Source of the DNA: a virus | Length of the DNA: 40,006 bases | Virus record (IMG/VR): IMGVR_UViG_3300022746_000009 | Span: 1 to 40,006 of that record | Strand: one strand, 5' to 3' | Shown: piece by piece, positions 1,521 to 40,006 of the stretch | Position numbering within the stretch: the stretch's first letter is position 1 | Layout of the letters: each line of letters begins with the position of its first letter | The notes under the pieces: generated by a model | The model's database searches: none | The model's input: only the letters and a program-made list of their open reading frames with translations | What the model was told of the DNA's origin: nothing | Position numbers and translations under genes: made by a program

Positions 1521-3833
1521 ATGACAAACAAAATTCAAGTCAAGCGTTCGGCGGTCAACGGGAAAGTCCCCACGACTGCCGACCTTGACCTTGGTGAAAT
1601 CGCGCTCAACACGAACAACGGCAAGTTGTTCATGAAGAAAGATGTTGGCGGCACTCAAAGCATTGTCGAGATCGGCGCAACAGGAGCTCCCGGCCCGGCT
1701 GGTGCAGGCGGTGCGCTTGGCTACTATGGCGCGTTTCAAGACGTAACAAACCAGACCGCAGCAAGCACAACTGCGTCCTATGTCATTGGCCTTGGCGTTA
1801 CTGATGAGTCCAATGGCGTGAGTATTGTCAGCGGGAACCGTGTCACGTTTGCAAACGCTGGAACATACAGCATCACGTTCTCAGTTCAATTTGTCAGTAC
1901 AGACACCTCAATTCACGATGCAAATCTCTGGATTCGGAAGAATGGAACCGATGTTGTTGACAGCAACAGTCAGTTCAGTATTCCAAATTCTCACGGCGGC
2001 GTTGATGGTCACTTGATTGGAACGGTCAACTATGTGATGACTGTTGCCGCTGGAGACTATCTGCAAGTTGTTTGGTCTGTGAGCAGTACAAATATTTCAT
2101 TGCAGACTATTGCTGCCCAGACATCTCCAACTGTTCCCCGAACACCTTGCATCATCTTGACTGTTCAACAGGTCATGTATACGCAAGTTGGCCCGACTGG
2201 CCCCACTGGCCCAACAGGTTTGACTGGCCCGACTGGCCCCGCTGGTTCGCCCGGCCCTACTGGGCCAACTGGCCCCACAGGTTCAGCCGCTACAGTGGCT
2301 GTAGGCACGACTTCGACTGGCCCTGCCGCAGTGACCAACAGTGGCACATCGTCTGCTGCCGTGTTCAACTTCACTGTTCCGCAAGGGGCTACCGGGCCAA
2401 CTGGCCCTACTGGCCCAACCGGAACTACAGGCTCCCCCGGCCCGACAGGTGCACCCGGCCCCGCTGGCTCTCCCGGGCCAACAGGCCCCACAGGCCCGAC
2501 AGGCTCTGCCGCCACCGTGACCGTTGGTACAACTTCTACTGGCCCGGCGGCTGTTACCAACAGCGGTACAACTTCTGCCGCAGTGTTTAACTTCACTGTG
2601 CCTCAAGGCCCCACTGGCCCCACCGGGCCGACTGGCCCAACCGGAACTGCGGGCTCCCCCGGCCCAACTGGCCCAACTGGCCCCGCTGGTTCTGCCGCCA
2701 CAGTCACGGTAGGAACGACCACAACAGGCCCTGCTGCCGTTACAAACAGCGGGACAACCTCTGCTGCCATTTTCAACTTTACCGTGCCTCAGGGCCCCAC
2801 AGGGCCAACCGGGCCAACTGGCCCAACGGGTTCCACTGGTTCACCCGGCCCGACTGGCCCGACTGGCCCGACTGGACTTGGTTACTCCGGCCTTACATCG
2901 ACCACATCGGTTGCAATTGGCACAGGCTCCAAAGCCTTCACGACCAATTTGGCTTCGACTGCCACAGCATTTGCGGTCGGTCAATATGTGCGCGTGTTCA
3001 GCACTGCTACCCCTGCCAACTACATGGAAGGCACGATCACCGCCTTTACCTCCACATCTTTGACCGTTAACGTGACGCTTGTTGGCGGTTCTGGCACGAT
3101 TGCGGCATGGACTGTGACTGATGCTGGCATTCAAGGTGCGACTGGCCCCACCGGGCCAACTGGCCCAACAGGCCCAACAGGCTCGACAGGCGCACCCGGC
3201 CCAACTGGTTTGACTGGCCCAACTGGCCCAACAGGCCCGGCAGGTTCTGCCGCCACTGTGACCGTTGGCACAACCTCCACTGGCCCCGCTGCTGTGACAA
3301 ACAGCGGTACGACATCGGCTGCAATCTTCAACTTCACGGTTCCGCAAGGCCCCACTGGCCCGACTGGCCCTACTGGCCCAACTGGAACCGCTGGCTCTCC
3401 CGGCCCCACTGGCCCGACTGGCCCTGCTGGCCCTCCCGGCCCTGTTGCTGGTTCTACAACTCAGGTCATTTACAACAACGCTGGTTCTGCGGCTGGCTCT
3501 GCCAACTTGACATTCAACGGCACGAACTTGACTTGCGGCGGAAGCGTCACGGCCAACTCGGATGAATCGTTGAAGACAAACTGGAGGCCGCTGCCTGAGA
3601 ACTTCATTGAGATGTTGGCATTGCTGAAGCATGGTATCTATGACCGTACCGACATGAATGAAACTCAGGTCGGTGTGTCTGCCCAACAACTGCAAAAGTT
3701 CCTTGCGAATGCTGTGTTTGCGAACCCTGACGGTATACTTTCTGTGGCCTATGGCAATGCTGCCTTGGTCGCCGCCGTTGCTCTTGCCGAGCGCGTGTTG
3801 GCACTTGAAAAACGACTACAGGAAAAAACATGA
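1521..3833 (+). CDS. Collagen-like tail fibre with C1q-like domain and S74 self-cleaving chaperone
   Basis: A 770-residue modular fibre. Order: Mtd-like anchor (1-52); C1q/TNF-like jelly-roll (about 65-220); Gly-Pro-Thr collagen tracts from about 224; four near-identical non-collagen modules of about 37 residues ([20 protein letters not shown] to FNFTVPQG) separating the tracts; a distinct domain at about 453-537 with GTGSKAF and YMEGTITAF; and a C-terminal intramolecular chaperone (679-770) with the S74 signature [13 protein letters not shown]74 domains fold the trimer and then cut themselves off at the conserved Ser-Asp, here S680-D681. Threonine dominates the Y position of the triplets; some Y prolines occur (GSP, GAP, GPP). 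The stop overlaps the start of a 2OG-Fe(II) dioxygenase by ATGA, which suggests coupled synthesis. Confidence 0.9.
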
Positions 3834-6767: not shown

Positions 6768-6899
6768 GGTGATGTCCTTTTGCCTTAGTTGATTCCCAAA
6801 AATACAGACCGCACAGCTTGCACCGCCACATAAGGCCCTCGTCAACGCGAGCAATGCGTTGTTCCAGCCCTCTCCAGCCTTTGATGACCCTTGGGTAGC

Positions 6900-9540: not shown

Positions 9541-9653
9541 AAAATTTTCCACCATGGTTTCTTTTTGAATGGACCGGAGATCGCGGAGTGCACATAGCAC
9601 CAAGTTCCATCCTTGAAGAACAGAACCCTTTCTTCATTGCGTAGCAGAATCAT
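9537..9653 (-). CDS. 38-residue protein coupled to both neighbours
   Basis: A very short ORF (MILLRNEERVLFFKDGTWC ... SGPFKKKPWWKIL). Its start overlaps the stop of the winged-helix gene by ATGA and its stop overlaps the start of the next gene by ATGA, so three genes are translationally coupled in a row. Alternating charged and aromatic residues suggest a small beta-hairpin protein. Its function is unknown. The double coupling is the main evidence that it is real. Confidence 0.6.
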   Translation of the reverse strand: MILLRNEERVLFFKDGTWCYVHSAISGPFKKKPWWKIL

Positions 9654-9973
9654 TTGGTCATCTCCTTTGCCAAGTTCATTGTTGCCTCAAGGGAGCTGAA
9701 ATAACTCTTGCCCATGGGTGTGAGCTTGAAGAACTTTGTTCGGCGGTTAAAGTCTTGATGGACTGTCTTGACGTAACCAACGTCACGAAGCACGCCCAAT
9801 TTGCGGTGAATGGTGGCCGGAGAGACGAACCCCGACTCCATGGCTTGTTTGACCGTCATGGCATTGCCATTCAATTCGCGCGAGGCGATCAACTCAAGCA
9901 GGCGCTCGCAATCACTGTCGCAAAAGAACTTAATTTTAGATTTGAGTTCGATGAATTTCAGATATGTTTTCAT
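9650..9973 (-). CDS. Winged-helix transcriptional regulator (MarR-like)
   Basis: A 107-residue DNA-binding protein, first gene of the leftward early operon. After an N-terminal helix (MKTYLKFIELKSKIKFF) it has a winged helix: CERLLELIASREL, MTVKQAMESGFVSPATIHRK (recognition helix) and LGVLRDVGYVKTVHQDFNRR for the wing, then KLTPMGKSYFSSLEA, a typical MarR-like end. The start at 9973 is fixed by ATAGGACACAAC upstream. It lies divergent from a Cro/YdaS-like gene at 10101, an arrangement usual for phage switch regions, so it may regulate one or both promoters in between. Confidence 0.82.
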   Translation of the reverse strand: MKTYLKFIELKSKIKFFCDSDCERLLELIASRELNGNAMTVKQAMESGFVSPATIHRKLGVLRDVGYVKTVHQDFNRRTKFFKLTPMGKSYFSSLEATMNLAKEMTK

Positions 9974-10010: not shown

Positions 10011-10037
10011 AGTATACACAAATAAACGGGTGAGCAA
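10011..10037 (-). promoter_or_regulatory. Candidate promoter of the leftward early operon
   Basis: On the minus strand a good -10, TATACT (10011-10016), lies about 37 bases before the ATG at 9973. A weaker -35, TTGCTC (10032-10037), is spaced 15 bases, shorter than ideal. The leader contains the small hairpin AGCCC-CGGT-GGGCT at 9991-10004. TAAACGGG at 10023-10030 also occurs in the two operator regions near 18.94 and 19.85 kb. Confidence 0.5.
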
Positions 10038-10073
10038 GCTATATTTCAAAAAAAAGTTGAAATAGGTTAACGG

Positions 10074-10094
10074 TTGATGTAAATCAACTACAAT
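10074..10094 (+). promoter_or_regulatory. Perfect FNR-type box next to a -10 element at the early switch
   Basis: TTGATGTAAATCAA (10074-10087) matches the FNR/ANR consensus TTGAT-N4-ATCAA exactly. It lies within a longer palindrome, GTTGAT-GTAA-ATCAAC. TACAAT (10089-10094) directly after it can serve as a -10 for the gene at 10101, whose ATG would then be at or near the transcription start. A protein bound to the box would block that promoter. Either the host oxygen regulator or the phage's own regulator could be the ligand. Confidence 0.6.
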
Positions 10095-10100
10095 GCACGA

Positions 10101-10274
10101 ATGGAAACACAAAAAGCAATCAAACTCGCAGGCAGCGCCATTAAGTTGGCAAAGCTATTGGGCATCACCAAAGGTGCTGTGTCCCATTGGGGAGAGATGG
10201 TTCCCCGTGGGAGAGAATGGCAACTTCGTGTGATGAAGCCAGAATGGTTTATTGAAGAAAAGGAAACAGCATGA
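10101..10274 (+). CDS. Cro/YdaS-like helix-turn-helix regulator
   Basis: A 57-residue protein, first gene of the rightward early operon. AIKLAGSAIKLAKLLGITKG followed by AVSHWGEMVPRGREW is a typical Cro/YdaS/DicC-type helix-turn-helix in which a helix follows KLLGITKGAVSHW and a Pro-Arg-Glu turn precedes the last helix. No Shine-Dalgarno is visible; a -10-like TACAAT sits seven bases before the ATG, so the mRNA may be leaderless. The stop overlaps the next gene by ATGA. Its likely role is to bind operators between the divergent early operons. Confidence 0.78.
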   Translation: METQKAIKLAGSAIKLAKLLGITKGAVSHWGEMVPRGREWQLRVMKPEWFIEEKETA

Positions 10275-13511: not shown

Positions 13512-13520
13512 TGGTATAGT
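13512..13520 (+). promoter_or_regulatory. Extended -10 promoter candidate
   Basis: TGG-TATAGT just after the ninB stop, 40 bases before the ATG at 13561, is nearly identical to the element at 10574-10582. There is no clear -35. It could start a transcript for the cluster of unknown genes from 13561 to 16674. Confidence 0.5.
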
Positions 13521-13560
13521 TCTCTCAACCAAATCAGGGTTACACAAAATAGGACACGAT

Positions 13561-16096: not shown

Positions 16097-16498
16097 ATGA
16101 AGTACAAAGCAAGCGTAGAGCAAACTCAACAGCAAGACCCATTGATCTACTTCATCATGTGCCTGCTACATGCTCGCACCACTGCTCACCTCAAACATTG
16201 GATGACAGCCAGCCGAAGCGACCACCAAGCGCTCCAATTTTTTTACGAATCAGCCCCCGACCTTATTGACAGCTTTGTCGAAGGCTTCCAAGGTGAATAC
16301 GGCAAGATTCACACCATCCCTGATGGCTACACATTCCCCACAGGGGAACCATGGGATTACTTCAATCAGCTTGGCAAAGAGATTGACGCATACCGTGTGA
16401 GCGGCAAATTCCCACAAGAGAGCTGGTTGCAGAACGTGGTCGATGAGATTCGATTGCTGGTTGCACAGACAAAGTACCAGCTCAAAGAGTTGAAGTAA
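16097..16498 (+). CDS. DUF5856-like helical protein, function unknown
   Basis: A 133-residue all-helical protein. CLLHARTTAHLKHWMTASRS, HQALQFFYESAPDLIDSFVE and GFQGEYGKI have the helix-rich, His/Asp/Glu-spaced look of ferritin-like phage proteins grouped as DUF5856; that assignment is from memory and moderate. Three ATGs occur in a row (16091, 16094, 16097); the third has the proper spacing from AAGGA. The stop forms TAATG with the next gene. Its role is unknown. Confidence 0.72.
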   Translation: MKYKASVEQTQQQDPLIYFIMCLLHARTTAHLKHWMTASRSDHQALQFFYESAPDLIDSFVEGFQGEYGKIHTIPDGYTFPTGEPWDYFNQLGKEIDAYRVSGKFPQESWLQNVVDEIRLLVAQTKYQLKELK

Positions 16499-16674: not shown

Positions 16675-16704
16675 TTGACCGACCAAATTTTTTTTTAAAA
16701 ATCC

Positions 16705-16733
16705 AGGGTGGGTCAAAAATAGTGCCCTTTTTT
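16705..16733 (+). terminator. Possible weak terminator after the rightward early operon
   Basis: AGGGT (16705-16709) and GCCCT (16724-16728) can pair over a 14-base loop and are followed by six T residues (16728-16733). The stem is short and includes a G-T pair, so efficiency is doubtful, but it sits where the operon ends. Confidence 0.4.
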
Positions 16734-16988
16734 GCTGTGGACTTTCATAATGCGAAATTCCCTCGAAAAATTCTCTGAATCCGCTCTAAGTGGTTGATTC
16801 ATAAGGCAAAAGCCACGGCGAGAAACCGCGCCGCTATCATGCCGCCGCGCTATCGCCACGCCATGCCGCCATGCTTGAAACCCACGCAAAGCGCCCACAA
16901 TGCCGCGCTTTTTGACCTTGCAAAGCCACGCCGCCGCGCCTTTTTGACCGCCGCCGCGCCGCTTTTGACCGATACACCGCGCCGCCAT
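16713..16988 (-). CDS. Doubtful leftward ORF in the repetitive stretch
   Basis: A 91-residue frame from an ATG with AAGG and the GCAAGC-ATG context shared by genes of the leftward module. Most of it is Gly/Ala/Arg-rich and repetitive (QKRRGGGQKGAAAW; KVKKRG), as expected from a G-rich strand without stops. The last third (MNQPLRADSENFSREF, then HSKKGHYF) is more protein-like. It may be a decayed gene. Kept at low confidence. Confidence 0.2.
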   Translation of the reverse strand: MAARCIGQKRRGGGQKGAAAWLCKVKKRGIVGALRGFQAWRHGVAIARRHDSGAVSRRGFCLMNQPLRADSENFSREFRIMKVHSKKGHYF

Positions 16989-17256
16989 GCTTGCGCCTTG
17001 CCCACGCAAAGCTGCCACAAAGCCGCCGCCGCCCACAAAGAGCCGCCAATGCTTGCACCTTGCGCCGCCGCAAATAACCCGCGCCGCCTTTTGTAAGCCG
17101 CCCACGGTTACGCCTTGCGCCTAAAACGCAAAACGCCCACGCTTTAACCTTGCGCCTATACGCGCAAAGAGCCGCCCACGGTTAAACCGCGCCGCCCCAA
17201 AGAGCCGCGCCCACGTTTAAGCCGCGCCCGTTTTAGAGCCGCTTACAAAAAGCCGC
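16790..17256. repeat. Degenerate C-rich repetitive non-coding stretch
   Basis: About 470 bases with no convincing gene, built from a small vocabulary of recurring words: CCCACGCAAAGC (twice), AGCCGCCCACGGTTA (twice), TTTTGACC (three times), CTTGCGCCT (several) and CCGCGCCGC. C greatly exceeds G on the + strand: 47 C against 26 G in 16861-16920 plus 17041-17100. It lies between two convergent operons. It may be decayed coding DNA of the leftward module, or a structural spacer. Confidence 0.6.
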
Positions 17257-17284
17257 AAAAAGAAAAGCCGCCACAATGGGCGGC
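17257..17284 (-). terminator. Strong rho-independent terminator of the leftward module
   Basis: On the minus strand, GCCGCC-CATTGT-GGCGGC forms a perfect GC stem followed at once by TTTTCTTTTT. It lies a few bases after the stop of the gene at 17289, so it ends the seven-gene leftward operon and protects it from running into the repetitive stretch. Confidence 0.88.
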
Positions 17285-17288
17285 GGGT

Positions 17289-17450
17289 TTATCCTTTTTC
17301 CATGTAAAGCGAAGCCTCCATTTTTAGATCATGGGCTATTTTTAATAGCTTTATGTCGCCCGTTTTTTGCCATTTTTCAAGGTGTAGCCGCGCTAGATCA
17401 TGCAAAAAATATGCTTTGTCAAAGACTTGAACGCTTAAATTTCTTTTCAT
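17289..17450 (-). CDS. 53-residue protein, last gene of the leftward module
   Basis: A short ORF with AAGGGGCAAGC before the ATG. It is a helical, mixed-charge sequence (VQVFDKAYFLHDLARLHLEK; DIKLLKIAHDLKMEASLYM). No motif is recognised. It is followed immediately by a strong terminator. The AAGGGG site shared with six upstream genes supports it. Confidence 0.65.
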   Translation of the reverse strand: MKRNLSVQVFDKAYFLHDLARLHLEKWQKTGDIKLLKIAHDLKMEASLYMEKG

Positions 17451-17459
17451 GCTTGCCCC

Positions 17460-17723
17460 TTAATGTTCAATTGTGACGGTTACGGCTTGCGGCGATAGCT
17501 TGCCTATGTATAACGTGCCGCTATTTGAGAAAATGCAGCAATACACCCGCCGCCACTTTCCCCCGTGTTGCACCATGTATCGTGTGGGGATTTTGCGCCC
17601 GTAACCCGTGGCGGTATACATAAGCCCGCGCTCTTGCCACGGCAGCGGCTTTTCTTTGACCGTTACGCGCTCCGTTAAAAAGGGGCCGTTTTCCCCGCCT
17701 TTGTGTTGAATCCATGCTTGCAT
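17460..17723 (-). CDS. Small protein of the leftward module, function unknown
   Basis: An 87-residue protein with AAGGGGTAAACA before the ATG. It is Trp/Tyr/Gly-containing and beta-like (MQAWIQHKGGENGPFLTERV; YMVQHGGKWRRVYCCIFSNS; TLYIGKLSPQAVTVTIE). The basic patches and a pair of adjacent cysteines stand out, but no family is recognised. The regular alternation suggests a small beta-barrel. It starts three bases after the previous stop. Confidence 0.72.
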   Translation of the reverse strand: MQAWIQHKGGENGPFLTERVTVKEKPLPWQERGLMYTATGYGRKIPTRYMVQHGGKWRRVYCCIFSNSGTLYIGKLSPQAVTVTIEH

Positions 17724-17726
17724 TGT

Positions 17727-17903
17727 TTACCCCTTCGCCGTTTTGTTGATATAGCGGGCCGCTTCTTTGTCTACAAAGAAAAGCCAATTAACGGCAGCGT
17801 CTACCGTTTCAAAGCCATATAGCTCTTTGGTGTTTTCATTAGATAAAAGAAAACCGCCCACGCCTTGCCAAAAATGCCACTTGCCAAAAATAGCGGGCTT
17901 CAT
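17727..17903 (-). CDS. 58-residue protein of the leftward module
   Basis: An ORF with AAAGGGGCGCAAGC before the ATG, overlapping the previous stop by ATGA. It reads FGKWHFWQGVGGFLLS, ELYGFETVDAAVNWLFF, DKEAARYINKTAKG: a small alpha/beta protein with several aromatics and no known motif. It is probably cytoplasmic. Confidence 0.68.
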   Translation of the reverse strand: MKPAIFGKWHFWQGVGGFLLSNENTKELYGFETVDAAVNWLFFVDKEAARYINKTAKG

Positions 17904-18139
17904 GCTTGCGCCCCTTTGAAAAGCTGCCGCGCTTGCGCGTCATAAAAGCGGCGGGCTTGCGTTAAAGTATCAAAGCACTCCCAAAGAAAGCGCCCCTTTT
18001 CGTCGCTCCGCGCCTGTACATGGGTGCAACCGTCTAAAAAAAGCGAAAGCGTAACGCCGCCGCGCTCTTTGGTTTCAATGTATCCGCAAGCCAAAGCGTA
18101 AGGCGTAAGCCGCCCGGCCTTTGTCCTAAATTTATCCAT
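17900..18139 (-). CDS. Small protein of the leftward module, function unknown
   Basis: A 79-residue protein with AAAGGGGCGAAGC before the ATG. It contains RLTPYALACGYIETKERGGV, TLSLFLDGCTHVQARSDEKG and ECFDTLTQARRFYDAQARQL, so beta strands are followed by an amphipathic helix. That arrangement is seen in small phage DNA-metabolism accessory proteins, but no match can be named. It overlaps the upstream gene by eight bases and the downstream gene by four. Confidence 0.72.
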   Translation of the reverse strand: MDKFRTKAGRLTPYALACGYIETKERGGVTLSLFLDGCTHVQARSDEKGRFLWECFDTLTQARRFYDAQARQLFKGAQA

Positions 18140-18284
18140 GCTTCGCCCCTTTGTATTGCTCTTTAAACATTGCCACGGCTTTGCGCTTTGTATAGCCCAT
18201 GTATTGCATGGAAACTAGATAGCCGCCCACGATAGCGGAGACGCGCCAAGCGCCTTGCATTGTTTTTTCAGTTGATACAGTCAT
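18132..18284 (-). CDS. 50-residue protein with GGYLV-x2-QYMGY motif
   Basis: A short ORF with TAAGGGGTAAAAA before the ATG. GAWRVSAIVGGYLVSMQYMG, then YTKRKAVAMFKEQ resembles small phage proteins with a G-GYLV-x-x-QYMGYT-K motif, which look like an amphipathic strand-helix unit. Its function is unknown. Confidence 0.66.
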   Translation of the reverse strand: MTVSTEKTMQGAWRVSAIVGGYLVSMQYMGYTKRKAVAMFKEQYKGAKHG

Positions 18285-18294
18285 TTTTTACCCC

Positions 18295-18753
18295 TTAAAG
18301 CCATGCGGAGCGCAACGCATAACCGCCCGCGCTATCTTCTTCGCCGTTACGCTTGCCATGCGGCGCGGGTGTACCCGTGGGCCAAAGGGCGGAGCCAAGG
18401 CCATAAACTAGGTCAAAGCCCATATCCATACCGCAACCGTTGCAAACGATACCGCCTTTGTTGGATAGCTTGCGGCCCGTTACGATAGAAGCGGCAAAAG
18501 ATATATTGTGTATTTCGCCGTTTTCAACAATTAAGAGCCCTATTTCTCGCCGCATACCGCTTGCCGATACGCTTTTTAAGTTGCAATAAACCGTTTGCCC
18601 CGGCTTAACGCGCTGTAGAAGCTCCGTTTTTACCTGTTCTTTGTATAGCGCCGCGCCTTTGGCTTGCGGCAGCTTTACGGCGGCTTTGTGATACTCCGGG
18701 TATGACGTAAAGAAAACGCGCCCCGCTTCTTGCATATAGATTGTTTTTGCCAT
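18295..18753 (-). CDS. Conserved phage protein with CGMDMGF motif
   Basis: A 152-residue protein, the largest of the leftward module. VKPGQTVYCNLKSVSASGMR, REIGLLIVENGEIHNISFA and VCNGCGMDMGFDLVYGLGSA follow a pattern I recognise from conserved small phage proteins of several host groups: a VS-SGM-R strand and a cGMDMGF-vVY-L end. Its function is unknown. The start at 18753 follows ATAAGGGGCTAATC; a longer frame to 18783 lacks that spacing. Two cysteines precede the CGMDMGF motif and may bind metal. Confidence 0.78.
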   Translation of the reverse strand: MAKTIYMQEAGRVFFTSYPEYHKAAVKLPQAKGAALYKEQVKTELLQRVKPGQTVYCNLKSVSASGMRREIGLLIVENGEIHNISFAASIVTGRKLSNKGGIVCNGCGMDMGFDLVYGLGSALWPTGTPAPHGKRNGEEDSAGGYALRSAWL

Positions 18754-18763
18754 GATTAGCCCC

Positions 18764-18859
18764 TTATTTTGTGAGAATGTCAAAATAGGCCAAAGCGCCT
18801 ACGGTCAAAGCTGCCACAATAGCGGCGGCGGCAATAAAATCTAGAATCATGCTTTTCAT
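18764..18859 (-). CDS. 31-residue membrane peptide, first gene of the leftward module
   Basis: A very short ORF with AAAGGGGTTTTTT before the ATG. After MKSMILD it has a single hydrophobic helix (FIAAAAIVAALTVGALAYF) and ends DILTK. It is 11 bases upstream of the next gene and 48 bases after the predicted transcription start. Its function is unknown. Confidence 0.6.
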   Translation of the reverse strand: MKSMILDFIAAAAIVAALTVGALAYFDILTK

Positions 18860-18910
18860 AAAAAACCCCTTTTTTACGTTTACCGCAAAGCCTTATTGCC
18901 TTGCATGGTT

Positions 18911-18950
18911 CAAAGTATAGGGCAAAGTTTAGCAAAGTAAACGGGGGAAA
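18911..18950. promoter_or_regulatory. Divergent promoter-operator of the leftward module and HNH gene
   Basis: Leftward: -35 TTTACT (18936-18941) and -10 TATACT (18914-18919), spacer 16. Rightward: -10-like TATAGG (18916-18921) overlapping it. Over both lie three CAAAGT repeats (18911, 18923, 18933) spaced 12 and 10 bases, and the inverted repeat GTTTA-GCAAAG-TAAAC (18927-18942), followed by GGGGGAAAACCC. The inverted repeat and G-tract recur at the terminase promoter. Confidence 0.65.
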
Positions 18951-18972
18951 ACCCTTAGAAGGTCAAAATAGT

Positions 18973-19398
18973 TTGCCCACGTTACCAAAAAGCAACACTT
19001 GCGAAGCATTACGGTGCAAAGAAGCGCGGGCGCAAGGCTCCGCCTTTTGTGAAACCCACGGCGGTAAGCCAAAGCAAAGCGCCGCCCGCTTTGAAGCTAA
19101 CGCGCCATATAAGACGGCAGCATGGCAAGCCATACGCGCCGCGCAACTATCCGCCGCCCCCCTTTGCGCTTCTTGCCTTTGCCGTGGCGTGGTGACGCAA
19201 GCCGCCCATGTTGATCACGTTATCCCGTGGCGGGCTATCGGCCCCGCCGCCTTTAAACGCAACCTTTTTCAAAGCCTTTGCGCTTCATGCCATACCCTGA
19301 AAACGGCAGCGGAGCAAAAAGGGGTTTATATCCATTACACCCAAAGCGGCCCCAAAGAGTACACCCGCGCCGATTACTTGCAACTGATACCCCGTTAA
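18973..19398 (+). CDS. HNH endonuclease next to the packaging genes
   Basis: A 141-residue HNH nuclease. Residues 10-29 (CEALRCKEARAQGSAFCETH) are a zinc knuckle. The HNH core is CASC (C65, C68), HVDHVIP (H79-H82), N97 and CASCH (C103, C106, H107). In HK97-type phages an HNH protein encoded beside terminase assists the cos cut by the large terminase, which fits this position. TTG at 18973 with AGAAGG upstream is preferred; a TTG at 18901 would place the operator inside the gene. Although it runs rightward, its + strand is as C-rich as the leftward genes nearby, so the composition belongs to the region and not to the strand. Confidence 0.85.
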   Translation: MPTLPKSNTCEALRCKEARAQGSAFCETHGGKPKQSAARFEANAPYKTAAWQAIRAAQLSAAPLCASCLCRGVVTQAAHVDHVIPWRAIGPAAFKRNLFQSLCASCHTLKTAAEQKGVYIHYTQSGPKEYTRADYLQLIPR

Positions 19399-19546
19399 AC
19401 CGTACCCGCCCGCCACTATCGCGCCCGCCGCGCCCGCTTTGGCCGCATAGACCCCGCAAAACACCACGCGCCACGCTGCCGCGCTTGCGCCGCGCCCATA
19501 AAAGCCCCGTTTTCTAATACAAAAGCACCTATTATTAGCGCTTTTG

Positions 19547-19714
19547 GCATGGCTTGCCCCGCTTTTTACTATTGCTTGCCCTTTGCCATGCCGCGCCGTT
19601 ACGCCGTTTTAATACCATACACCGCGCCCCGCATGGTTTGCCACGCCATACACCGCGCAAAGCCGCGCCATTACGTCATTGTCACGCCATACACCGCGCC
19701 ACGCATGGCTTGCC
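19547..19714 (+). repeat. Two interleaved direct-repeat families before terminase
   Basis: CCATACACCGCGC occurs exactly at 19615-19627, 19646-19658 and 19687-19699, with starts 31 and 41 bases apart, close to three and four helical turns. GCATGGYTTGCC occurs at 19547-19558, 19631-19642 and 19703-19714. A related GCATGGCAAGCCATACGCGC lies inside the HNH gene near 19119. Such arrays resemble terminase-binding sites. Confidence 0.65.
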
Positions 19715-19836
19715 AAGCTCTTTGGCCCGCCAAGCCGCGCCGCGCCGCGCTTTAAGAACTAAAACATGCGCCAATCCCAAAGTAGCAGGCCCGGGGGTAA
19801 TTTCGTAGGGGAGGTAAGTCAGGAGGGGGAGTAAGG

Positions 19837-19866
19837 TATACTGTTTAGTAAGTTAAACGGGGGAAA
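19837..19866 (+). promoter_or_regulatory. Terminase promoter with GTTTA-N6-TAAAC operator
   Basis: A -10 TATACT (19837-19842) without a recognisable -35 is followed directly by GTTTA-GTAAGT-TAAAC (19843-19858) and CGGGGGAAA, then TTCCC and the terS ATG at 19872. The inverted repeat would cover the transcription start. The same arrangement occurs at 18927-18950, which suggests one regulator for both. GGGAA-A-TTCCC at the start codon can also form a small hairpin. Confidence 0.6.
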
Positions 19867-19871
19867 TTCCC

Positions 19872-20243
19872 ATGAAAAAAGCACCCAAACAGATCATCAA
19901 CTTCATACGCAATCCTGACGAGTGGGATGCTGTTGTATTTGAGACACAAATCCGTAACGAAGTAGAGAACTCGACAGGCGCACTGACTGCGAGTGATGAA
20001 GCGTTGGTTGGAATGCTGGTCATGACCATGCAAAGTCTGATCGACGCTCAAAGTGCAATCGCAAAGCATGGGCACATCGAACATTACAACTCCGGCCCTG
20101 CCACGTCGCCTTGGTACAAGATCAGAACCGAATCGCTCGACAAATCCGTCAAGATTTTGGCGGAGCTGGGTTTGGTGGCCCGTGGCCGACCAAAGAAGAC
20201 AAGCGCACCCACTGCGATAGATGAACTATTCGCCTCTGCTTGA
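19872..20243 (+). CDS. terS: Terminase small subunit (P27-like)
   Basis: A 123-residue protein with the look of the P27 small terminase family. The helical N-terminal half is followed by HGHIEHYNSGPATSPWYKIR and SLDKSVKILAELGLVARGRP, the conserved substrate-like end of the family. Small terminases recognise the packaging site on concatemeric DNA and load the large subunit. The repeats at 19547-19714 directly upstream are the obvious binding candidates. It overlaps the large terminase gene by 23 bases. Its own promoter and operator precede it. Confidence 0.88.
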   Translation: MKKAPKQIINFIRNPDEWDAVVFETQIRNEVENSTGALTASDEALVGMLVMTMQSLIDAQSAIAKHGHIEHYNSGPATSPWYKIRTESLDKSVKILAELGLVARGRPKKTSAPTAIDELFASA

Positions 20244-21894
20244 GCCTGCGTTTAAGTACGCGACAGCCGTAGTTCGCGGCGATCAACTTGCGTGTGAAGA
20301 TGTCAGGATTGCGTGTCAACGGTTTCTCGATATGGTCGAGCGCAAAGACGCGCCCTATGAGTTCGTCCCGTCAAAGGCCGAGCACATCCTCAAATTCGCC
20401 AAGTTCTGCCGCCACGTAAAAGGGCCTGATGCTGGCAAGTCGATTGAGCTTGAGGGATTTCAAGTTCTATTCCTTGCTGCAATATATGGTTTCCGTGACA
20501 AGAAAGACCACAGCAAGCGATGGGTGACGGATGTCATCTTGTTCGTTCCCCGCAAGTCCGGGAAGACCACGCTCGCCTCCATCATTGCCCTCTATGAGCT
20601 GTTGTTTGGTGAGGCTGGCCCTGAGGTGTTCACGCTGGCGACAAACCGCGAGCAGGCGTCCATTTGCTTTGATTCATCCAAGGCGATCATGGAGAGCATG
20701 GTTCCCGAGTTGCAGAGCAGATTTATTCCGTTCCGCAGTGAGTTGAAAAAGGCCGGAGACTCCACTTCTACATACCGCGCACTGTCCCGCGAAAACCGCA
20801 AGACGGGTGACGGTAAAAACCCATCATGCGCCATGATTGACGAGGCCGCGCAGATCACAGAGCGCGGGTCGATTGAGGTGTTGCACTCGGGTATGGCTGC
20901 GCGTAAAAACCCGCTCCGCATGTATTTGACGACCGCGAGCTTCACCAAAGAGACAAAGTTCTATGAGGACTTGAATCACTTCCGCGCAGTGCTCCGTGGA
21001 GCCGCTGAAGACTCGTTCCGATGGTTTGGCCTGCTCTATTCTGTTGACCCCGGCGATGAGTGGTCTGACCCCGCCGTGTGGGGCAAGGCGAACCCTATGC
21101 TTGGCGTCTCTGTCACGACCGAAGCAATTCAGCACATGGCCGACGAGGCCAAGAGCAAACCAGCGTCTCTGAACGAATTTTTATGCAAGCAGCTCAACAT
21201 TTATGTGAGCTCGAATGCTGCGTGGGTTGATCGTCGATTCTGGGATGAGTCTGTTGCACCCATGCCGACTGACAAACCAGAGGCGACATTCATTGGATTC
21301 GACTTGGCACACAGCCGAGACTTGAATGCTGTGGTAACGCTCCATCGGTATGCCGAGGAAGACTTGTACGCTCGCTTCAAATTCTTCCTGCCAGAGGAAT
21401 CGATTGACCTGATTCCCAACCATTACAAGTCGATCTTCAGTCAGGCTGTGGCATCCGGTATATTGCACCTCACACCCGGTAACGTGACTGACCTGAATGA
21501 AATTGAATCCTACATACGTCAAGAGGCTGAGACACATGAAGTCAAGGAAATTGGTTATGACCCTTACAACGCTGCTGCTCTTGTTGCCAACCTGTTCTCA
21601 TACGGCCTTCCAGTCAAGAAAGTTGGACAGGGTATGGCAGTGCTATCCAACCCCTCGAAAACGGCGGAACAGCTCATCCTAAAGAAGGCCATCAAACACG
21701 ATGGAAATCCTTTTGTGGGATGGCAATTGGGCAACTGCGAGGTCTATACCGACGTGAATGGCAACGTAAAAGTGAGAAAAAACGAGGCCGACCCATCCGC
21801 GAAGGTTGACGGCATCATCGCCATGATCATGTCTTTGCATTGCCATTTGGATAACGTATTTGTGTCAGACTCTTATGGACTACGATTATTTTGA
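20221..21894 (+). CDS. terL: Terminase large subunit
   Basis: A 557-residue packaging ATPase-nuclease of the Terminase_1 (HK97-like) family. The Walker A variant is P110-RKSGKTT-117, and Walker B with the catalytic acid is CAMIDEAA (D207, E208). The RNase H-like nuclease acids are D361 (GFDLAHSRDL), D447 (GYDPYN) and D530 (KVDGIIAMI). The length is normal for the family. It pumps DNA into the prohead through the portal and cuts the concatemer, probably with the HNH protein encoded upstream. The large-terminase type, together with an adjacent HNH gene, favours cos packaging. Confidence 0.95.
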   Translation: MNYSPLLEPAFKYATAVVRGDQLACEDVRIACQRFLDMVERKDAPYEFVPSKAEHILKFAKFCRHVKGPDAGKSIELEGFQVLFLAAIYGFRDKKDHSKRWVTDVILFVPRKSGKTTLASIIALYELLFGEAGPEVFTLATNREQASICFDSSKAIMESMVPELQSRFIPFRSELKKAGDSTSTYRALSRENRKTGDGKNPSCAMIDEAAQITERGSIEVLHSGMAARKNPLRMYLTTASFTKETKFYEDLNHFRAVLRGAAEDSFRWFGLLYSVDPGDEWSDPAVWGKANPMLGVSVTTEAIQHMADEAKSKPASLNEFLCKQLNIYVSSNAAWVDRRFWDESVAPMPTDKPEATFIGFDLAHSRDLNAVVTLHRYAEEDLYARFKFFLPEESIDLIPNHYKSIFSQAVASGILHLTPGNVTDLNEIESYIRQEAETHEVKEIGYDPYNAAALVANLFSYGLPVKKVGQGMAVLSNPSKTAEQLILKKAIKHDGNPFVGWQLGNCEVYTDVNGNVKVRKNEADPSAKVDGIIAMIMSLHCHLDNVFVSDSYGLRLF

Positions 21895-26714: not shown

Positions 26715-27383
26715 ATGTCCGTTGACCAAGTTGGCTATTTGAATTACGGGGCTCCCACAAGGAACCCGTTCAATTACGCAAAGACCGAGCAGATCAAGCG
26801 TGACATTGCAACGTCTTGGTTGACTCTCGACGAAATCACCAATCAACTCAACTTGTTCGGTGATGAAAGTCAAGACAGCTACTTGACTGGCCTTGAGCTG
26901 GCCGTGCGCATGACGATTGAAGACTTCCTTGGGATGTCCATCTTCCCGGTGTCTTATCGCGTCTGGTACAACGCGGCAAGCCTGTATGGCACGCCTTTGT
27001 CTTTGGACTTGCCTGAGGTGAGCCAGAACTTTGACCCTGCACAGCCGGGCATCACGATCAATGCTGTGAAGTATTGGACTGGCGATCAAGTGCCCGTCAT
27101 TCATGTGATGTCGAAGACCTCGTATTACTACGACGCCTCGGGCAACAAGGTGATCTTGGACAGCCTGCCAAGCGATCTGAATACGGTGATGACATCGCCA
27201 ATCTATTGCGAGTACACAACAGCAGCAAACCCCTTGGCGGCTTACCCCGTGATCAAACAGGCTGGTTTGCTGTTGTTGACTCACCTCTACAACAATCGTA
27301 GCGACACGACTGGCCCGATTCAGCACAACATCCCTTGGGGTGTTCAGACCTTGCTTCGTCCGTACAAACCACTGGTGATGTAA
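26715..27383 (+). CDS. Head-tail connector (HK97 gp6-like adaptor)
   Basis: A 222-residue protein of the adaptor type that forms the first ring below the portal. AKTEQIKRDIATSWLTLDEI, TYLTG-like YLTGLELAVRMTIEDFLG and YPVIKQAGLLLLTHLYNNRS are the N- and C-terminal helices of the gp6/gp15-like fold; the middle is a beta insertion (FPVSYRVWYN, PLSLDLPEV, PIYCEYTTA). Its position right after the capsid genes is standard. It is separated by no bases from the next connector gene. Confidence 0.85.
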   Translation: MSVDQVGYLNYGAPTRNPFNYAKTEQIKRDIATSWLTLDEITNQLNLFGDESQDSYLTGLELAVRMTIEDFLGMSIFPVSYRVWYNAASLYGTPLSLDLPEVSQNFDPAQPGITINAVKYWTGDQVPVIHVMSKTSYYYDASGNKVILDSLPSDLNTVMTSPIYCEYTTAANPLAAYPVIKQAGLLLLTHLYNNRSDTTGPIQHNIPWGVQTLLRPYKPLVM

Positions 27384-34551: not shown

Positions 34552-37500
34552 ATGCCAGCATCAATAATTGTTGCTTACGAGGCTGTTGCGGCCTATTACG
34601 CAACAAACGCAGCTTTTGCTTTTGCGGTCAACATGGTCGCGTCTGCGATTATTTCAAAGACTCTTGGCCCAAGCGGCCCCAATGTCAATGACGCTCAAGG
34701 CAACCCAAACCCCGGAAGCCGCGCCCAAGTTCCGCCCGCTGGTGACAATAAGCTGCCTGTGGTCTATGGCGCTGCCTATGTGGGTGGCATCATCACAGAC
34801 CTCAGCATCACATCGGACAATCAGCAGCTCTATTACGTTTTGTCGTTGGCTGAAGTGACAAACACCGAGACTGGCGGAACGCCTGACACCTACACCTTTG
34901 GCAATGTGTATTACGGCGGCAAGAAAGTCATCTTCAATAGCACAAACCAATATCAGGTTGACAGTCTGTTGGATGAATCGACTGGCGTGTACGACACCGC
35001 TGTGGCTGGCAAGCTGGAAATTTATCTTTACCAAAACGGTTCAAGTTCTGGCGTAAACACAACCAAGACAGCCATTGAAGTGATGAACAGCACTGGGCTT
35101 GTTTACACATGGGACTCGACCAAGTTGATGAGCAATTGCGCTTTTGCGATTGTCAAGATTGTCTACAACCAAAATGCCGGGACGACTGGTCTTCAGCAAA
35201 CCAAATTCCAGCTCACCAATAGTCGTTACAAGCCCGGTGATTGCTTCTCTGATTACCTGACATCGGAGCGCTACGGCGCGGCCATTCCTGTCTCTGCAAT
35301 TAACACTGCAAGCCTCACTGCGCTGAACACTTATTGTGATCAGTCGTTCTCGTACACGACCTACTCGGGAACGACCACAACGCAGACTCGATTCCGTTTT
35401 GACGGAACGCTGGACACAAGCCAGACCATCATGACCAATTTGCAGCTCATGGCCGCTTGCTGTGATTGCTTGCTCAAGTACAACGAGATCACTGGCCTCT
35501 GGGGTGTGATTGTTCAGACATCGACCGTTGTGCCCGTGATGGACATCAACGACTCAAACATGGTGTCGGCAATCTCAGTGTCACCCATCGACATTGCATC
35601 CAGCTACAACATTGCTGAAGTCAAGTTCCCAGATAGCACAGCACAAGATTCATTCAATTCCGCAGCGTTTGATTTGTCGGTAATTGACCCTGCCTTGCTT
35701 TATCCAAACGAACCAGTCAACAAGCAGACGATCAGCCTTCCATTGGTGAACAACAGCGTTCGTGCGCAATACCTTGCCAACCGTTTCCTGAAGGCGGCGC
35801 GTGAAGATTTGCAAATGCAATGCGAGGTTAACTATTCTGGTCTTCAGCTTGAGGCTGGCGATGTTGTTACCGTGACCAATGCCAATTACGGATGGACGGC
35901 AAAGCAGTTCCGCATCAACAAGGTGGTGGAGAAGTTTGCTGACAATGGCGCGATTACAGTGACTCTGAATCTGGCAGAGTTCAATGCGTCCGTCTACAAC
36001 GATGTGTCGATCACTCAGTTCACACCATCGCCCAACAGCGGCATTGGCGACCCTACATTCTTTGGCGTGATTTACGCGCCTACAGTTGTCAGCTCGCAGC
36101 CTTTTGCAACTACCCCTTCGTTCAGCGTTCAGGCTCGCGCAAGCAGCGCTGGCGTTGTTCAGTACGCAGAGATTTGGTACAGCGCATACTCAAACCCAAC
36201 AGCATCTCAGCGCATCTTTGCTGGCACGACTGCTGTCAATCCCGGCGGCAATCCGTACAACCCCGGCGCTACGCTTCCCGCTGTCAGCCTGACCAACATT
36301 CCAAACGGTGACTGGTACTTTTTTGCTCGAATGGTCAACGCCTTGGGCATAAGCGTGTTCTCATCGGCCTCGTCAGTTTTTGTGTGGCGACCAACCACAT
36401 TCCAGTACACGAACCGCTATTTGGCCGTAGCCTATGCTGACAACGCGACAGGAACGTCCGGGTTCAGCTACAACCCACGCAACAAGGCTTACTACGGCCT
36501 CTACAACAACGTCACAGCCAACGGCGGCACAGACCCCACGCTCTACACATGGTACGCAGCGTCACCAACATTCAGCACAGCCAACTACATTCTTTACACG
36601 AACCGACAGAACCGAAAGTTCAGTTTCAACGTGGGAAGCGCTGGCTACCTGAACTTGGGTGGAGCATTTGTTCCTTTGGAGACATCGGTCTATGACTCAA
36701 GCTCATGGTCTGGCTTGCTTGACCCTACAGGCTCATTGCAGAGCTTCATTGACCTTGATGCCCGCACAGGTCAAACAATCGTTGCTGGAGCCACTGGAGC
36801 CAACGTGAACGATGGCTTCTTGGCTGTGACAAACAACACCGACGGTTCGATGAAAGTCAACTTGCATGACTTCCTAAACTTTGGTGCTGGCGTTTACTCC
36901 AAGTCATTCAATGCAGCGACCCTGACGATTGACGTTTATGGTCGCGTGGTGGGATTTACCGAAGCTGACCAGTTCTATTACACCGAGCAAGTGTTCACGG
37001 CCACCGCAGGGCAGACAAGTTTCTCGTTCACTCATACGGTTGGATGGATTCTCGTGTTCCGCAACGGAGCGTTGTTGGGCTCATCGGACTACAGCGAAAC
37101 AGGTACTACCGTTGTGATGACGAATGCCTGTGCTGTTGGCGAGAACGTGGTGATTATTTACGCCAGAGGCGTGAGTACCAGTGTGTTCTATGAGCCGCTG
37201 AACATCACGATTGCGTCCAGCACGACCAACACGATCACTTATGCAAGCGCACCGTGGAACCAGATTGCAATTGGTGACCAGCTTTGCTTCTCCAATACTG
37301 GCACTCCAACGCTCTACACCGTCACAGGGGTAAACGCGACCACCAAGGTTGTGACATTCAGCGGAGCCATCTCTGGTGCGACCGCAGGATTGACCGTCTA
37401 TCGCTATCGCGCAGCGGGTTCAAGCTATGCTCCGTTCACTCGTTACGACCAAGCAATCTCTGGCATCACGACTTTCACCCCATCGACTTACTCGATCAAC

Positions 37501-39453: not shown

Positions 39454-39942
39454 TTGGCTGTATTCAACAAAAACTCAATCACGCAAGTAAGCGGATTCAA
39501 CAATCCTTGCATTACTGGCGAACTCGTCTATCAGCAACAGACTTACTGGAATCTTGTGCTCACCGCAGAAGATGGCGTAACTCCTATCAGCCTGACTGAT
39601 GCAATCATCGACGCGCAGATCGTTCGTCGCACACTCACCAACGTACAAGACACTCGCTACGGCCTGTCGTTTGACATTGGCAACTATCAGCCAACTCCAA
39701 CTCCAATTCCATTGACCATCGTCAACCGCAATGACGACGCTGGCTCTTTCACGCTTGTGATTGACGACAATTCGTGGAGCTTGGTGGACACAGACGCAGA
39801 GATGGCGATCAACTCCGTCAATGGCGCTGGCTTTTCTGGTCGCATCAAAATCAGCTTCCCTCAGGTAAGCGCAACGCCCCCAGAAGACAACATCATCTTT
39901 TTGCTGTTCATTGTTCGTTCTGATGGCATCGTAAAAGTTTAA
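39454..39942 (+). CDS. Tail fibre/adaptor protein, BppU-like style
   Basis: A 162-residue beta-rich protein beginning at TTG; the frame is closed just upstream, so no other start is possible nearby. It has FNKNSITQVSGFNNPCITGE, LVYQQQTYWNLVLTAEDGVT, LTDAIIDAQIVRRTLTNVQD, GSFTLVIDDNSWSLVDTDAE and a closing strand pair (NIIFLLFIVRSDGIVKV), the plan of small tail/baseplate adaptor domains that attach fibres. Its last 21 codons (stop included) recur at 1-63 because of the end overlap. It is followed by the small gene at 73. Confidence 0.82.
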   Translation: MAVFNKNSITQVSGFNNPCITGELVYQQQTYWNLVLTAEDGVTPISLTDAIIDAQIVRRTLTNVQDTRYGLSFDIGNYQPTPTPIPLTIVNRNDDAGSFTLVIDDNSWSLVDTDAEMAINSVNGAGFSGRIKISFPQVSATPPEDNIIFLLFIVRSDGIVKV

Positions 39943-40006
39943 GGAGGGCTCATGGCAAATTTGAATGTCAGTGCCGTCCCAAGCAATACGAATGTCACAG
40001 TTCAAG
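39880..40006. repeat. Terminal direct repeat, copy 2 (circular closure)
   Basis: Identical to bases 1-127. It carries the end of the adaptor gene, the AAGGAGG site and the beginning of the next small gene in both copies. Confidence 0.95.
39952..40006 (+). CDS. 5' end of the small fibre-cluster gene found in full at 73-366
   Basis: The first 18 codons of the gene at 73-366, cut by the window end. It is a duplicate produced by the 127-base overlap; on the circle there is only one copy. Confidence 0.95.
   Translation, partial: MANLNVSAVPSNTNVTVQ

Follow-up and report, generated by a model that had tools for sequence, protein, structure and literature searches.

Putative operators of a Cro-like repressor at the HNH endonuclease and terminase promoters of an uncultured phage

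The early switch and the region around cos

The window is the whole 40,006-nt stretch that was analysed, positions 1 to 40,006 of IMG/VR record IMGVR_UViG_3300022746_000009. It carries a terminal direct repeat of 127 bp (1-127 and 39880-40006), which identifies the record as a closed circular assembly permuted through cos. The early switch lies between a leftward and a rightward gene and contains three candidate operators.

9650-9973, minus strand: divergent winged-helix (PadR-like) gene, a profile match; a similar protein at this place only in G012 among the genomes checked
10012-10027, plus strand: candidate operator GTATACACAAATAAAC, leftward side of the switch; relatives L158-L180 have one at the same position
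10056-10071, plus strand: candidate switch operator GTTGAAATAGGTTAAC, a motif match
10067-10094, plus strand: early rightward promoter for cro, TTAACG-16-TACAAT, a consensus match only
10073-10088, plus strand: candidate operator of the switch, GTTGATGTAAATCAAC, directly next to the cro -10; relatives have counterparts 12-14 nt upstream of cro
10101-10274, plus strand: Cro-like regulator of 57 aa with helix ITKGAVSHW (PF14549 P22_Cro, E 1.5e-12), the proposed binder

The product of the 10101-10274 gene, which adjoins the palindromic operators in the divergent early region, scored 47.5 bits against the P22_Cro profile, above the curated cut-off of 30.2, and its nearest solved structure is P22 Cro (1rzs, E 0.0044). 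Searches of the window for the S24 peptidase and HTH_3 domains of a CI-type partner repressor gave no match, other repressor types being possible, and a search for tyrosine-type integrases found none in the window or in ten relatives.

Similar sites were found after ninB and on both sides of an inferred cos, among the HNH and terminase genes.

13514-13529, plus strand: candidate post-ninB operator GTATAGTTCTCTCAAC, overlapping an extended -10, TGGTATAGT (13512-13520)
18914-18941, minus strand: leftward promoter TTTACT-16-TATACT of the leftward module, its -35 inside the operator
18927-18942, plus strand: candidate HNH/leftward-module operator GTTTAGCAAAGTAAAC, from motif, matrix and conservation
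18943-18950, plus strand: GGGGGAAA tail, common to the terminase site and outside the operator core
18973-19398, plus strand: HNH endonuclease, 141 aa, TTG start (PF01844, E 2.2e-8; phrog_144, E 6.5e-23)
19786-19795, no strand assigned: inferred 10-nt cosN CAGGCCCGGG, with the left end of the genome at 19796
19837-19842, plus strand: -10 TATACT before the terminase small subunit, abutting the operator
19843-19858, plus strand: candidate terminase operator GTTTAGTAAGTTAAAC, from motif and matrix
19859-19866, plus strand: GGGGGAAA, ribosome-binding G-run, function by inspection
19872-20243, plus strand: terminase small subunit, 123 aa (PF05119, E 8.2e-7)
20221-21894, plus strand: terminase large subunit, identified by its blastn match to the large terminase annotated in phage P19250A

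The contigs of relatives end in ...GGGAG and begin with GTCAATTTCG, without the ten bases CAGGCGCGGG that junction-spanning contigs contain. Their absence at contig ends places cos at 19786-19795 and would fit a 3' overhang removed in library preparation. Because this cos falls between the HNH and terminase sites, the two lie at opposite ends of virion DNA, at ~845 bp from the right end (HNH) and 47 bp from the left end (terminase); their separation of 916 bp holds only for circular or concatemeric DNA. The region from 16700 to 19785 reaches a GC content of 0.61, with strong negative GC skew and short leftward genes, and includes C-rich repetitive, apparently non-coding stretches beside cos. 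A separate palindrome, GGGAA(A)TTCCC (19859-19874), stands directly before the terminase ATG, overlaps the ribosome-binding site and is conserved in clade 1. A search for relatives of the terminase in GTDB genomes, made for host assignment, found none.

A 16-bp palindrome in the window and its relatives

The sequence-only reading had proposed that one operator, GTTTA-N6-TAAACGGGGGAAA, is placed after a TATA-type -10 at both the HNH and the terminase promoters. The stretches GTTTAGCAAAGTAAACGGGGGAAA (18927-18950) and GTTTAGTAAGTTAAACGGGGGAAA (19843-19866) match this pattern exactly and are its only two copies in the window. The -10 was borne out at the terminase site, where TATACT (19837-19842) is directly adjacent. 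The HNH site differs: its good -10 (TATACT, 18919-18914) faces left, and the matching -35, TTTACT (18941-18936), falls within the palindrome; the site also lies just 3' of a weaker rightward TATA. The TAAACGGG placed in the early switch at 10023-10030 is present and forms the right arm of GTATACACAAATAAAC. The proposed operator had been palindrome plus tail, and of these the palindrome stands. The GGGGGAAA tail is common to the HNH and terminase sites and absent from the switch, the other operators and L081, and CGGGGGAAA was rejected as an operator core on its absence from the switch and L081. By inspection, GGGGGAAA also appears to be a ribosome-binding G-run at the terminase gene; it has no evident role at the HNH gene.

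The operator core is a 16-bp palindrome with half-site GTWKA, that is GT(A/T)(G/T)A, and a 6-bp spacer. In the window, the strict form (GTWKA-N6-TMWAC) was matched seven times against 0.35 expected, and its half-sites gave no match at wrong spacers of 4, 5, 7 and 8. Exactly four places in the 40 kb (10056, 10073, 18927 and 19843) match the alternative form GTTNA-N6-TNAAC (0.59 expected), a number attained in one of 100 shuffles. Shuffles and wrong-spacing controls together rule out a chance origin of the motif. A symmetric matrix trained on the early-switch operators alone placed 18927 and 19843 among the top seven places in the window, so that, at the level of sequence, the earlier proposal of one operator joining the early switch, leftward module, HNH and terminase genes holds. 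Some matches lie in coding DNA, one at 16115 and one at 27275, so not every match is an operator. The latter (GTTGACTCACCTCTAC, 27275-27290) lies within a head gene, is common to several relatives and probably reflects coding constraint.

Eight complete or near-complete relatives (G001-G008) each contain six to eight copies of the strict motif, compared with ~0.3 in shuffled sequence; many copies are spread across each genome, as in dispersed repressor systems. Wrong spacers (4, 5, 7 and 8) gave zero to two matches in the window and these relatives. The strict motif had zero to two copies in 14 phages of other lineages, 11 of which have a different Cro-like protein; the remaining three (G020, G021 and P19250A) yielded no Cro-like gene and serve as sequence-background controls only.

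The site before the HNH gene is the most constant. A strict operator was found 27-122 nt before the HNH start in all nine clade-1 genomes with a placeable HNH gene, while HNH identity in relatives ranged from 54% to 92%; the genomes whose HNH protein is no more than 54-63% identical are among the nine. Its half-sites switch among GTTTA, GTATA and GTTGA from genome to genome (GTTTA..TAAAC, GTTTA..TATAC, GTTGA..TCAAC and GTTGA..TAAAC), and L082 has three operators there. The post-ninB site lies on the extended -10 TGGTATAGT in the window and eight relatives, and is 10-18 nt from the end of ninB in eight of nine genomes (~190 nt downstream in G002). Amid changed flanks, these two conserved positions are the strongest signs of function that the comparison offers. 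Five relatives have an additional operator on the far side of the leftward module, near its distal end (G001 at 6834, G003 at 3463, G004 at 34805, G006 at 36251 and G007 at 458); none was found at this distal place in the window.

At the terminase promoter, where the earlier reading had suggested searching related phages, the motif is strict in some relatives and degenerate in most. The strict form precedes the terminase gene in the window, G002, G010 (L007) and L013/L015; G001 and G009 have a near form (GTTAA), and G003-G008, G011 and others a degenerate one (CTTGA-N6-TTAAG or TTAGG type), as do most clade-1 genomes. Judged by this distribution, the terminase link appears real in the window but lineage-specific. 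In L013 and L015, an apparent homing-endonuclease-like gene, read from sequence, stands directly before the terminase promoter, where the cos flank would be expected.

Operator sequence and Cro type

The Cro helix does not vary within clade 1 (TKGA(V/I)SHW), and the relatives' switch contains three 16-mers (e.g., GTATACACAACTAAAC, GTTGAAGGGTCTATAC and GTATAGGGAAATCAAC). Unrelated prophage Cros with the helix ITKGAVSQW have GTTTAGGGTTCTATAC, GTTTAGCGTCCTATAC or GTATAGCGTTCTATAC at their own switches, in the form GTTTAG-N4-CTATAC or GTATAG-N4-CTATAC. Four phages with the same helix core (L182, L191, L192 and L202) had no strict switch site. Within clade 2, VHNW-type Cros are accompanied by a GTTGC-N6-GCAAC palindrome at cro, and QSAISQW-type Cros by TTATAAG-N4-CTTATAA palindromes both at cro and dispersed. 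Seven genomes of the latter type (G013, G014, G015, G017, G023, G024 and G025) hold several dispersed copies, a second dispersed-operator system. The terminase leader did not covary cleanly with Cro type in clade 2, as two Cro types share one leader. For the third-group palindrome of G021 (TATTC arms), a second copy was not found.

These observations point to the stretches before the HNH and terminase genes being operators of the phage's own Cro-like repressor (10101-10274), to which we assign a probability of roughly 0.82. The PadR-like product of 9650-9973, or a host regulator, might bind them instead. The PadR-like gene flanks the switch and encodes a winged-helix domain, and PadR/MarR-type proteins also bind palindromes. 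Most relatives, however, have unrelated proteins at this place and keep the operators, for which reason the Cro-like protein is the likelier binder; motif presence moreover tracks Cro type, and the half-sites are shared by unrelated Cros that have the same helix. We consider a PadR-like or host binder improbable.

A packaging role for the terminase-side site, as a terminase-binding, cosB-like element, would agree with its location, 47-62 nt inward of the inferred left end and within sequence conserved from cos to the terminase start. The same type of 16-mer nevertheless occurs away from cos, at the early switch, after ninB and before the HNH gene, and the palindrome is degenerate in many phages that otherwise keep the cos flank. 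L013 and L015 keep the unit of -10 and palindrome without a preceding cos-like sequence, which favours promoter control, and a packaging signal seems quite improbable. Least credible is the idea that the palindromes form RNA hairpins in the leaders of the HNH and terminase genes, or that they are direct repeats left around the HNH gene by a recent duplication, with no regulatory role. GTTTA and TAAAC can pair in RNA, some terminase variants keep pairing via wobble (by inspection), and the GGGGGAAA tail, shared outside the operator, could stem from one place having been copied to the other. Against this, the palindrome alone is repeated at other loci and where relatives have different flanks, and several sites extend over promoter elements, which would stay untranscribed.

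Proposed regulation and comparison with known systems

The best reading of these sequences is that the Cro regulon extends to the packaging nuclease, the leftward module and, in the window, terminase. A Cro dimer would bind the 16-bp palindrome; three copies would control the divergent early switch, and single copies overlap the promoter after ninB (13514), the divergent HNH and leftward-module promoters (18927) and the terminase promoter (19843). The predicted sites overlap or abut a -10 or -35, and Cro binding would thus block RNA polymerase: the terminase operator abuts the -10 TATACT, the site at 13514 overlaps a -10 and that at 18927 covers the leftward -35. Regulation would accordingly take the direction of repression, and early autoregulation may be tied to the timing of nuclease and terminase cutting and packaging at cos.

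As neither a tyrosine integrase nor an S24 or HTH_3 repressor was found in the window, a role in lytic timing is more likely than one in lysogeny. A tentative and rather doubtful extension is that the Cro-like protein serves as a lytic timer in this phage, which apparently has neither a CI repressor nor an integrase. Through the HNH and terminase operators, the cos-cutting enzymes would be kept off until replication had made enough operator copies to titrate Cro away, so that the onset of packaging would be coupled to genome copy number.

In the textbook lambdoid switch, Cro acts on early promoters only, and late packaging genes depend on antitermination; the Cros of lambda and P22 act at early operators. 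Our results suggest that one small early repressor may also hold down DNA-packaging genes. It seems to be connected directly with the packaging nuclease and, in the lineage of the window, with terminase, which would provide a short route between early control and the onset of packaging. They also yield a testable recognition code, pairing ITKGAVS(Q/H)W with GTTTA, GTATA or GTTGA half-sites, across uncultured phages and unrelated prophages.

Like the P22 and lambdoid Cro switches (P22_Cro, PF14549), the locus has a small helix-turn-helix lytic repressor beside three palindromic operators of the 16-bp class in a divergent early region. Unlike them, it has the same motif at the HNH, post-ninB and terminase promoters, and it differs from the lambdoid lysis-lysogeny switch in that no CI-type repressor or tyrosine integrase was found. 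The telomere phages N15, PY54 and phiKO2 share an all-alpha Cro and 16-bp palindromic operators; PY54 Cro binds a 16-bp palindrome, and in N15 further operators of the prophage repressor CB lie at repA (PMC4488713). The extra operators of these phages serve plasmid replication and the prophage repressor, whereas those described here lie at packaging genes. In HK97, the HNH protein gp74 promotes cos cleavage (PMC9410871). The HNH gene beside cos and terminase resembles that system, and the ten bases lacking at both contig ends would fit a 10-nt 3' overhang like that of HK97, if only indirectly (PMC9410871), but Cro operator control of HNH and terminase genes was not met for HK97 in the literature searched. 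More generally, we found no description of Cro operators at terminase, or jointly at HNH and terminase promoters, in the open-access literature searched, of which coverage was incomplete.

A parallel for dispersed control is found in L5-type mycobacteriophages, where one repressor has 20-30 dispersed sites that lie mostly off promoters and block elongation, and where the motif changes with repressor type (PMC6550527). The phages studied here would likewise pair one repressor with many dispersed sites and a motif that varies with it, but have only six to eight symmetric sites. Whereas stoperators are oriented with transcription, these are palindromes whose main copies coincide with promoter-like elements. 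Dispersed-operator control is known, while Cro-type operators on the promoters of packaging genes would be new.
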